64,000 nucleotides of DNA, from positions 62,001-126,000 of the forward strand of contig UCMT01000014.1 of the NCBI GenBank assembly GCA_900473795.1, in the 5' to 3' direction. The stretch is from Hyphomicrobiales bacterium. GTDB taxonomy: Bacteria > Pseudomonadota > Alphaproteobacteria > Rhizobiales > Rhizobiaceae. The translations under genes were made by a program, and so were the position numbers. The notes beneath the pieces are model-generated. The model was not told the DNA's origin and did not search any database. It saw nothing but the letters and a program-made list of their open reading frames with translations. Positions 35,978 to 38,944 of this stretch are shown here, in pieces. Every line of letters begins with the position of its first letter. Within the stretch, counting starts at the first letter, position 1.

Positions 35978-35997
35978 CGGACACCGACGTGAGCAGC

Positions 35998-37155
35998 ATG
36001 ACCGACACCGGCCCCTTTGTCCTTTTCCGCGACGACAGCGAAGACAGGACGACCGTCTTCGCCGAGCCTTCGCATGTCATCACGGCGCGGACGAAGGCTG
36101 AGTTCTGGCGCGGGCTCGAGGACATGGAAGCCGCACACCACGCCGGAAAATGGCTTGCGGGCTTCATGAGCTACGAGGCCGGCCATCTCTTCGAAAGGAA
36201 GCTCGCTCCCTTTGCCGAGGAAAACCGCCGCACGCCGCTGATGTCCTTCGGCGTCTTCGAGGGGCCGGCCGAGGCACACCCGCTTTCCGAGCCCCGGCGG
36301 CGCATCGAGAACGAGCCCTTCATCACCGAGCCTCGTGCAAGCTGGAACTTCGACGCCTACAGGCGGCGCTTCGACCGCCTGCATCAGCACTTGCGACAGG
36401 GCGATTGTTACCAGGCCAACCTCACCATGCCGGTCACCGCCCGCTGGAACGGCAATCCGCTCGCCGCCTTCTGGTCGCTGATCGAGCGGCAGCCGGTGAA
36501 ATATGGCGCGCTCGTCTCGCTCGACGGCCCAACCCTGTTGTCCCGCTCACCGGAACTCTTCTTCAAGGTCGACAAGCAAGGCTGGATCGAGACCCATCCG
36601 ATGAAGGGCACCGCGCGGCGCGGCGCAAGCCCGGCGGAGGACGAAGAGATCATCCGCGAGATGCAGGCCGATCCGAAGTCCCAGGCGGAGAACCGGATGA
36701 TCGTCGATCTCTTGCGCAACGACATCTCCCGCATCACCGAGGTCGGCACCCTCGAAGTGCCACGCCTGTTCGACGTCGAGACCTATCCGACCGTGCACCA
36801 GATGGTGAGCCACGTCCGGGCGAAACTGCTGCCCGATGTCGGCATCACTCAAATCTTCGAAGCATTGTTCCCCTGTGGCTCGGTCACCGGCGCGCCAAAA
36901 ATGCGGGCGATGGAAATCCTGCATGATCTGGAAGCCGGCCCGCGCGACGCCTATTGCGGCTCGATCGGCTTCATCGCGCCGGATGGCACCATGCGCTTCA
37001 ACGTCGCCATCCGCACCCTGTCGCTCTTTCCGGATGGCGAAGCCGTCTTCAACGTCGGCGGCGGCATCGTCTTCGATTCGACCGCCGAAGCGGAATATGA
37101 GGAATGCCTGCTAAAAGCCCGCTTTGCGGTCGGCGACGCTTGGATCGAGCGATGA
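35998..37155 (+). CDS. pabB: Aminodeoxychorismate synthase component I
   Basis: The 385-aa chorismate-binding enzyme has QGDCYQANLTMPV, THPMKGTARRGASPAEDEEI, NRMIVDLLRNDISRI and the catalytic PCGSVTGAPKMRAMEILHDLE (about residues 299-319). It forms 4-amino-4-deoxychorismate from chorismate with ammonia from a PabA subunit that is not in the window. A GTG three codons upstream is an alternative start. The stop overlaps pabC by 4 nt. Confidence 0.94.
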   Translation: MTDTGPFVLFRDDSEDRTTVFAEPSHVITARTKAEFWRGLEDMEAAHHAGKWLAGFMSYEAGHLFERKLAPFAEENRRTPLMSFGVFEGPAEAHPLSEPRRRIENEPFITEPRASWNFDAYRRRFDRLHQHLRQGDCYQANLTMPVTARWNGNPLAAFWSLIERQPVKYGALVSLDGPTLLSRSPELFFKVDKQGWIETHPMKGTARRGASPAEDEEIIREMQADPKSQAENRMIVDLLRNDISRITEVGTLEVPRLFDVETYPTVHQMVSHVRAKLLPDVGITQIFEALFPCGSVTGAPKMRAMEILHDLEAGPRDAYCGSIGFIAPDGTMRFNVAIRTLSLFPDGEAVFNVGGGIVFDSTAEAEYEECLLKARFAVGDAWIER

Positions 37156-38015
37156 CGGATTTTTCCCTGATCGAAACGATGCGATGGGAGCCCGGCACCG
37201 GCATCGCCCGCCTGCGGCTGCACCTCGCCCGCCTGAAGCGATCGGCCGGACGGCTGGGATTTGCCGGGGCGGATCAGGTTGAAAGCGCGTTGGAGGAAGC
37301 GTTTGGAGCCCCTCTTTCCTCTTCGCCAAACAGGTCCTTGGAAGATAAGCGTATGAACATGGACATCGCCGCGCCCTCCCTCTTCTCCCCTGCGGGGAGA
37401 AGTGCCGAGCGCAGCGAGGCGATGAGGGGGTCTGTCGGCGAACTCGGCGCCAGTATTCCCCCCTCATCCGGCGGCCACCTTCTCCCCGCTGGGGAGAAGA
37501 GGGAGCAAGCGCGGGGCGATTCGAAAACAGGAACCACCGAAAGTTTGGATCAACCATCGCCATTGCGCGTTCGCCTGACGCTCAGCCCTTCCGGTGAAAT
37601 CGCCATCACCACCGCGCCCTTCACGCCGCTTCCCGAAAACACCGTCTGGCGCGTCGCGGTCGCCGCCACCCGTCTCGATTCGGCCAACAGGCTCCTGCGC
37701 CACAAGACCACCCGGCGCGAGATCTACGAGGCGGCGCGCGGTGAATATCCGCCGGCGGCTGCCGACGAGGTCCTGCTGCTCAACGAGAAGGGCGAGCCTT
37801 GCGAGGGCACGATCACCTCGCTTTTCCTCGACGACGGCTCGGGCGTCCTGAAAACGCCGCCGATTTCCTGCGGGCTGCTTGCCGGCGTGCTCAGGACCGA
37901 ATTGATCTGCGCCCGCCGCGCCCGCGTGCAGCGCTTGACGCTTCAAGACCTGCGCAAAGGAACGTTGTTCATGGGCAATTCGCTGCGCGGCCTGATCCGG
38001 GCCGAGCTGGTTTAG
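37152..38015 (+). CDS. pabC: Aminodeoxychorismate lyase-like class IV aminotransferase with repeat insert
   Basis: The 287-aa protein starts SLIETMRWEPGTGIARLRLHLARLKRSAGRLGF and ends with RLLRHKTTRREIYEAARGEYP (HK being the likely PLP lysine), NEKGEPCEGTITSLFLD and FMGNSLRGLIRAELV, all of the fold-type IV lyase. It splits aminodeoxychorismate to p-aminobenzoate and pyruvate. Residues about 54-135 match no enzyme segment; they are encoded by a palindromic repeat inserted in frame (see separate entry). Most rhizobial relatives are about 210 aa by memory. The ATG overlaps the pabB stop. Confidence 0.88.
   Translation: MTDFSLIETMRWEPGTGIARLRLHLARLKRSAGRLGFAGADQVESALEEAFGAPLSSSPNRSLEDKRMNMDIAAPSLFSPAGRSAERSEAMRGSVGELGASIPPSSGGHLLPAGEKREQARGDSKTGTTESLDQPSPLRVRLTLSPSGEIAITTAPFTPLPENTVWRVAVAATRLDSANRLLRHKTTRREIYEAARGEYPPAAADEVLLLNEKGEPCEGTITSLFLDDGSGVLKTPPISCGLLAGVLRTELICARRARVQRLTLQDLRKGTLFMGNSLRGLIRAELV
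37374..37503. repeat. Palindromic rhizobial repeat inserted in frame within pabC
   Basis: CTTCTCCCC-TGC-GGGGAGAAG (37382-37402) and CTTCTCCCC-GCT-GGGGAGAAG (37479-37499) are two palindromes with 9-bp stems. Between them GATGAGGGGG (37421-37430) and CCCCCCTCATC (37458-37468) form a second inverted pair. CTTCTCCCCGC...GGGGAGAAGG with CCCCTCATCC is a repeat family I remember as frequent between genes in Rhizobium and Agrobacterium. Here it lies inside the pabC reading frame and keeps it open, adding roughly 40 to 80 codons. Confidence 0.8.
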
Positions 38016-38944
38016 CGCAGGCTGACCGCGATCCGGTCGCGGCCGGAATGCTTGGCCTCGTAGAGCGCGGCATCCGCGCGCGAATAGAGCGACCTTGCGG
38101 TATCGCCCGGCTCCAGCACGGCAATGCCGGCGGAGCAGGTATAGAAAAACTGCGGCGCCGACGGCAGGGGGCGCGCGGTGCGTACCTTGTCCAGCACCCG
38201 ATCGACGATCTTGCGGCCATCCGGCAATGTCGTCTCCGGAAAGATCAGCATGAACTCCTCGCCACCGACGCGCCCGAAGCAATCGTGACGCCGTACGACC
38301 GGATGCACCCTGCGCGCAAAATCGAGGAGAATGTCGTCGCCCGTCTGATGGCCGTACAGGTCATTGATGCCCTTGAAAAAATCGATGTCGAGAATGCAGA
38401 TACAGCCTCTCCCCGCGCCAATCGCAGCCTGTTTCTGCACCATCTCCTCGAGCTTCGACATCATGTAGCGGCGGTTGGAGATGCCGGTCAGCTCGTCGGT
38501 CTGGGAGGCTTTCACGGCGAAGTCGCGGTCCTGCCGCAACGTGCGCTCATCGGCACGCAGATGGGTGATGTCGTTGGCAATGCACAGCATCCAGCCGTTG
38601 CGGTCGACGGTCTCGGTCATCCACAGCCAGCGGCCACCGACGACATCGGTCTCGAAGGCTCGAAACGGCACCTTGCCGCGGCGCGACTGGGCCGAGACCA
38701 CCCAGGCCTCGAAGTCGGGCACGCTGATGACGGTGCCGCGGCCGAGAGCATGATTGCGCCGCATCAGATCCGGCCAAATCGGCGTCTCATCGTCGTCAAG
38801 ATGGAAGGTCGAGCGGAAGGCCCGGTTGGCGTAGCGCAGGCGATCGTCATGATCGTAGAGCGCGATGAGGACTTCGGTGTCGTCTCGCAATGACGCCAGG
38901 CTGGCCGCTATTTCATCCATCGCACCGATTCCGTATTGCCGCAT
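38012..38944 (-). CDS. PAS-GGDEF diguanylate cyclase
   Basis: The 310-aa soluble protein has an N-terminal PAS-like domain (about residues 18-130, with LYDHDDRLRYANRAFRSTFHLD) and a GGDEF domain (about 146-308) with DELTGISNRRYM, DIDFFKGINDLYGHQTGDDIL and the active-site FGRVGGEEFMLIFPE. It makes cyclic di-GMP; the GGEEF variant is catalytically competent in known enzymes. The start may instead be Met9. Its stop overlaps the pabC stop by 4 nt. Confidence 0.93.
   Translation of the reverse strand: MRQYGIGAMDEIAASLASLRDDTEVLIALYDHDDRLRYANRAFRSTFHLDDDETPIWPDLMRRNHALGRGTVISVPDFEAWVVSAQSRRGKVPFRAFETDVVGGRWLWMTETVDRNGWMLCIANDITHLRADERTLRQDRDFAVKASQTDELTGISNRRYMMSKLEEMVQKQAAIGAGRGCICILDIDFFKGINDLYGHQTGDDILLDFARRVHPVVRRHDCFGRVGGEEFMLIFPETTLPDGRKIVDRVLDKVRTARPLPSAPQFFYTCSAGIAVLEPGDTARSLYSRADAALYEAKHSGRDRIAVSLR

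Follow-up and report, generated by a model that had tools for sequence, protein, structure and literature searches.

The window, i.e., the whole stretch of 64,000 nucleotides analyzed here, comes from a source genome of 6.39 Mb in 101 contigs and contains a gene of the folate pathway, pabC, with a palindromic repeat inserted in frame (Table 1). Read from the open reading frames, pabC starts with an ATG at 37152 that overlaps the stop codon of the upstream frame, and ends at 38015. Judged by its sequence, the upstream frame is putatively pabB-like. A Pfam scan matches the C-terminal part of the pabC product to PF01063 (Aminotran_4; 4.7e-26), and the best solved relative of PabC, both by sequence and by fold, is 3qqm.

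Table 1. Positions of the pabC gene, its upstream frame and the parts of its variable linker in the window.
Feature	Position	Strand	Remarks
pabB-like frame	35989..37155	+	directly upstream, overlaps pabC by ATGA
pabC, aminodeoxychorismate lyase-like fold-type IV enzyme, 287 aa	37152..38015	+	open frame, in-frame repeat inside
Variable linker with repeat, codons 41-137	37272..37562	+	from linker lengths; identity to sister species drops locally
Palindromic repeat, family A, 130 bp	37376..37505	+	27-nt terminal inverted repeat; encodes PabC residues ~75-118 of 287
Left end palindrome CTTCTCCCCTGCGGGGAGAAG	37382..37402	+	pattern search
Inner arm GATGAGGGGG	37421..37430	+	read from sequence; paired in RNA fold
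Inner arm CCCCCCTCATC	37458..37468	+	read from sequence; paired in RNA fold
Right end palindrome CTTCTCCCCGCTGGGGAGAAG	37479..37499	+	pattern search

Structure of the repeat in pabC

Both end palindromes are parts of one 27-nt inverted repeat (37376-37402 and 37479-37505) that is 96% complementary. Repeat A thereby has the terminal inverted repeat that is looked for in MITEs; the arms of a second family, B (see below), were read by eye. A search with the 21-nt palindrome pattern, allowing up to 3 mismatches, gives two matches in the 64-kb window, while two matches were found in 0 of 100 dinucleotide shuffles. The predicted RNA fold of 37374-37507 is very stable (-91.2 kcal/mol, z -7.59) and is equalled by 0 of 200 shuffles, and the pabC reading frame is open across the whole repeat. 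No Rfam family reached its gathering threshold when the window was scanned. No clean target-site duplication was seen when the flanks of 19 A and 18 B copies were inspected by eye, none of which was constant. The preliminary description of this DNA had placed the repeat at 37374..37503; the palindromes, the inner pair and the open frame are as it described them, but the element proper spans 37376-37505.

The pabC linker is 291 nt long here versus 48-72 nt in the 11 measured genomes of the genus in which it is empty, and the parts of the linker outside the repeat (the rest of residues ~41-137) are also far longer than in the empty relatives. Residues ~54-135 had been proposed as the insert, and such an extra segment is indeed absent from the empty relatives, but the repeat itself accounts only for residues ~75-118 and the rest is linker. 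In relatives without the repeat the pabC products are 206-218 aa long. Together with the confidently modelled core and the purifying selection described below, this agrees with the earlier suggestion that PabC has grown from about 210 to 287 aa without being broken.

Copies of repeat A elsewhere

Family A has at least 22 dispersed copies of 97-153 bp in the source genome, most of them with similar ends (40 of 99 candidates were scored). Among 23 loci, only pabC has the element flanked on either side by supported coding sequence, as judged by codon scoring and, for 10 frames of 7 loci, a Pfam scan. At L142, L143 and L158 the element is located in front of the first domain, within a stretch free of stop codons. 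The simplest view is that it precedes the start codon; N-terminal fusions may be present there. Long frames cross the element in L147 and L158; none of them matches a Pfam family, and they face frames with better scores. L146, L149, L153 and L159 are cut by contig ends, which makes the label of a spanning frame meaningless at these loci. Additionally, 20 loci hand-picked among the element matches listed (18 in relatives and 2 in the source genome) gave no in-frame case with a convincing codon score on both sides. Plasmids served as a control with a gene table that is incomplete by its own description: of the 40 records listed among 114 matching A, 38 have annotation but show no gene at the match, and 2 are unannotated; of the 30 listed among 161 matching B, 23 have annotation and show no gene there either, and 7 are unannotated.

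Most copies of A would survive inside pabC, as 15 of 17 (pabC included, L159 left out) are open in the pabC phase, although this is suggestive only. Copies of the two families also cluster: a B arm lies within 49 bp of 3 of 22 A copies, compared with an expectation of 0.05 (P = 2e-5). On the assumption that 13% of the genome harbors all copies, the expectation rises to 0.38 (P = 0.007). These 22 copies exclude a 115-nt match on contig C46 and a split match on C58.

Occupancy of the linker

A pabC match is present in all 26 genomes of the genus, which we take to be the Pararhizobium group, soil bacteria with kinship to Rhizobium. The loop contains a palindromic repeat in 14 of the 26 species and is empty in the other 12. 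Family A occupies it in six species (G000, G008, G022, G024, G025 and G010), of which G008 is presumably Rhizobium giardinii H152, and family B in eight. Of the latter, G020, G001, G012 and G019 have the ends TTACCCCCCTCTG and CAGAGGGGGGTAA, with one full and one partial copy in G012; G017, G003 and G016 apparently have the opposite arm order, and G004 has a remnant. The opposite order is a reading and not a proof, as the left arm of B scores higher reversed in all three species and the right arm is tied in G017 and G016; for the remnant in G004 the scores decide neither way. B matches occur in 25 of the 26 genomes, several per genome. A local alignment of A and B scores 9 against a shuffle mean of 8.0, with 121 of 500 shuffles as high, and by this comparison the two families are unrelated. 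Close relatives sharing the inserted residues without repeat character had been named as a possible argument against an insertion; R. giardinii H152, as we assume G008 to be, shares both the residues and the repeat character.

The reading phase is identical in every A carrier, and likewise in B carriers of several genera. Multiple-of-three linker lengths are not evidence by themselves, since the linkers were cut from one translated frame. Both core motifs and one stop-free frame are found in 12 of the 13 carriers with pabC on a single contig, i.e., 12 of the 14 carriers in the genus have a clean single open frame. G024 was left out of this check because its pabC is split over two contigs, and in G019 (87% complete assembly) the gene remains open, although its frame is shifted near the C-terminal motif.

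Two of these genes deserve a separate remark. The pabC of G019 (L028) contains mutually cancelling frame shifts near the start of the C-terminal core, beside the B copy, which could be a sequencing error or real compensation. In G024 (L013, G024:C62 and G024:C10:1-387) the assembly breaks within the pabC palindrome, and draft genomes may therefore hide filled alleles.

Outside the genus, a sample of 394 genomes of the family was searched, of which 208 have a pabC match, 8 of these within the genus and 200 outside. The match is unbroken in 194 of the 200 genomes and split in 6, and a one-piece match is compatible with short inserts or with an N-terminal piece below the threshold. Among 80 of 185 relatives, all 61 pabC loci outside the genus likewise give one unbroken match of 609-627 bp. 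Family B occupies the linker of G424 and also that of G291, in which it encloses an arm of a third repeat. The two score 37 and 38 against B, respectively, which 0 of 300 shuffles reach. The copy in G424 is absent from a listing for which 40 of 117 candidates were scored, and was confirmed by direct alignment. In G256 the linker contains the third palindromic repeat, of which three nearly full-length copies (73-76%) occur elsewhere in that genome and parts occur in G291 and G424. Its score against B is weak, with 32 of 300 shuffles reaching it. In G424, G291 and G256 alike, the reading frame remains open through the linker. In all, the pabC loop is filled by at least three repeat families across four genera. 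Split matches also drew attention to G193, G309 and G400 (86% complete), none of which was accepted as a carrier. In the first two the linker is longer but no palindromes are visible in it, and in G400 pabC is broken in frame. The locus in G291 (L262, minus strand) is a nested composite in another genus, with an arm of the third repeat between two B arms in one open pabC frame.

Enzyme core

The C-terminal core of PabC is under purifying selection, with pN/pS of 0.17-0.26 in six species pairs, compared with 0.32-1.14 in the linker and 0.08-0.45 in the short N-terminal part (from 27 rows, of which G014, G024 and G028 were dropped). The lowest linker value, 0.32 for G000 and G008, represents 3 silent and 3 replacement changes. 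Across PabC and 40 relatives, 45 columns are invariant. A structure model built from 41 sequences has a mean pLDDT of 80 and a pTM of 0.72. Its closest structure is 3qqm of Mesorhizobium loti, with TM scores of 0.89-0.94 over four chains when normalized by target length. In the model, a helix (40-51) precedes the insert and a strand (138-144) follows it. The pLDDT is mostly below 50 in the insert and mostly above 90 in the core. Modelling had been recommended together with the initial proposal, and its outcome, a disordered loop next to an intact core, is in favor of it. PabC has the fold and the conserved residues of a fold type IV aminodeoxychorismate lyase, and the filled enzyme looks intact in sequence and model. 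The gene is the sole ortholog found in the source genome; four other class-IV aminotransferase matches there might substitute for it. An inactive gene would have spoken against the proposal, and we see no sign of inactivity in the sequence.

History of the linker

Two trees were compared, one of rpoB (25 species) and one of the end of the upstream gene plus pabC without the linker (25 species and 2 outgroups, which do not form one side of a branch). G014 was dropped from both due to a broken rpoB and a frame-shifted pabC. On either tree, the repeat states require at least 8 changes when four states are counted, at least 7 when the B arm orders are merged, and 5 for filled versus empty. Both trees join G008 (A) and G017 (B) as sisters at 100% bootstrap, while G000 (A) lies outside this pair, and pabC cores of sister species with different repeats are ~92% identical. 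The rpoB data reject a clade of G000 and G008 (p-AU 1.2e-4), as do the pab flanks, though weakly (0.039). The pab flanks also reject a single clade of the six A carriers (p-AU 9e-17). In a tree of 42 A copies, based on 130 nt, one origin of the pabC copies is compatible with the data (p-AU 0.57), and all of them could descend from one insertion.

Identity between the sisters G017 and G008 is lost abruptly. It amounts to 100/111 nt before the linker, 29/48 at its start (p = 3e-5) and 423/456 after it, and since the break begins upstream of the repeat, whole linkers have probably been swapped by recombination. At the start of the linker G017 is identical to G004 at 42/48 nt. G000 and G008 show the opposite pattern, with 6/291 differences in the linker versus 31/570 in the core (p = 0.02, uncorrected, with a 6-nt gap excluded). 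As the linker is elsewhere less constrained than the core, its closer similarity in this pair is best explained by a local exchange of the whole linker. G022 was considered as the donor of the A linker, but is a weak candidate, as G000 and G022 share only 33/48 nt at the start of the linker.

The sequence 3' of pabC varies as well. About 300 nt (window position 38016 onwards) are common to G008, G017 and G002 and absent from the other six species compared, i.e., the neighborhood changes right after pabC.

Probable origin and exchange of the inserts

Since related species carry different repeats or no repeat in the same loop, the segment looks repeatedly invaded and swapped while the core is kept. 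We consider it quite likely that a dispersed palindromic repeat that is normally intergenic entered the PabC linker in frame and would be translated as a disordered loop, with the enzyme core retained. Within the Rhizobiaceae, this linker would have received inserts on more than one occasion, from at least three unrelated families of palindromic repeats, and some inserts may have been lost again. Whole linkers, repeat included, probably move between species through local homologous recombination in the conserved pabC flanks, and not by fast point change. The best reading of these data is that a tolerant loop acts as a recurrent landing site for repeats that are otherwise intergenic, in which case the translated insert is presumably tolerated rather than useful and the filled enzyme would work. 

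Tolerance of the loop accounts for the survival of inserts, not for why pabC stands out. A first palindrome may turn the site into a landing pad for later ones, and the clustering of A and B copies is a hint in this direction, albeit suggestive only. It is possible, but rather doubtful, that the linker goes further and is a targeted landing site and exchange cassette, where the palindrome attracts other repeats and provokes local recombination, e.g., by hairpin cleavage and repair from incoming DNA. In that case a single housekeeping gene would continually exchange unrelated stretches of peptide among species, with no change to its core.

A single ancient insertion that was inherited and later modified by divergence and loss only would fit the shared reading phase within A and within B across genera, as well as a possible single clade of the A copies in pabC. 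This is nevertheless unlikely. A, B and the third repeat show no similarity above shuffles except for the weak score between G256 and B; in both trees, carriers of A are mixed with carriers of B, with the changes counted above; the test on the pab flanks rejects the six A carriers as one clade; and the match is unbroken at all 61 loci and in 194 of 200 genomes outside the genus. For A versus B, one ancient insertion is already hard to keep. Recurrence at one site in one housekeeping gene, along with the very strong RNA fold, might instead point to a selected role of the inserted peptide or of the mRNA hairpin, e.g., in tuning translation of PabC relative to PabB. The low divergence of the linker between G000 and G008 would fit such a role, but is equally explained by recent exchange. 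As the site is filled by unrelated peptides or, in 12 of 26 species, by none, and the linker has pN/pS of 0.32-1.14 and little structure in the model, a selected role appears quite improbable. Least probable, and very much so, is that the repeat marks a decaying gene. A 130-bp hairpin looks costly in a coding frame, but the single frame without stops in 12 of the 13 carriers that could be checked, the constrained C-terminal core with its 45 invariant columns and the status of pabC as sole ortholog found in the genome all argue against a pseudogene.

The pabC loop offers related empty and filled natural alleles of pabC side by side, which is a ready comparison for studying target choice of repeats. 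These alleles also bear on whether palindromic repeats can seed new protein segments, and on how the ribosome handles a very stable hairpin within a coding frame.

Relation to known repeats

Rickettsia provides the best-known examples of palindromic repeats within protein genes; many genes contain them there. For the Rhizobium-specific intergenic mosaic elements (RIMEs), the defining paper is reportedly Osteras 1995. The accessible parts of the Rickettsia palindromic element (RPE) literature describe elements in frame in many genes (PMC10969869) and one further case (PMC5656822). Compared by description and not by RPE sequence, the pabC repeat is alike in being a dispersed palindrome of ~100-150 bp that is open in the frame used and sits in frame inside a metabolic gene. 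However, RPEs occur in frame in many unrelated genes, whereas pabC is the sole supported coding copy among 23 loci and has one site that is used by different families. The likeness to Rickettsia elements in the preliminary description thus applies to the mode of working but not to membership, as one site instead of many genes argues against the pabC repeat being an RPE.

Enterobacterial RU-1, RU-2 and RU-3 are MITE-like intergenic repeats with open frames that are also found inside annotated genes, according to the excerpted text of PMC2759123. They resemble the pabC repeat in this respect, but have other hosts, and the excerpt, on which the comparison by description is based, mentions no single recurrent site with exchange of families. 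RIMEs are named among the repeats of rhizobial intergenic regions in the sections available of PMC2573895 and PMC2245857. Recurrent filling of one loop is not described in the portions at hand of these RPE, RIME and RU sources (PMC10969869, PMC5656822, PMC2573895, PMC2245857 and PMC2759123), and a search of the literature, conducted largely outside subscription papers, gave no report of this pabC site filled by palindromic repeats. Judged from the same RIME passages, family A is similar to RIMEs and other rhizobial intergenic repeats in being rhizobial, dispersed, multi-copy, palindromic and, with the exception of pabC itself, intergenic. It also shares a mosaic structure, with two end palindromes and an inner pair, and with B arms near three of the 22 A copies. 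It differs in that the pabC copy is intragenic and in frame, and its likeness to RIME1 and RIME2 is one of description and not of sequence. Some B copies (L233, L248 and L223) have mutually complementary flanks when inspected by eye, as if they had been inserted in the loop of a longer hairpin.
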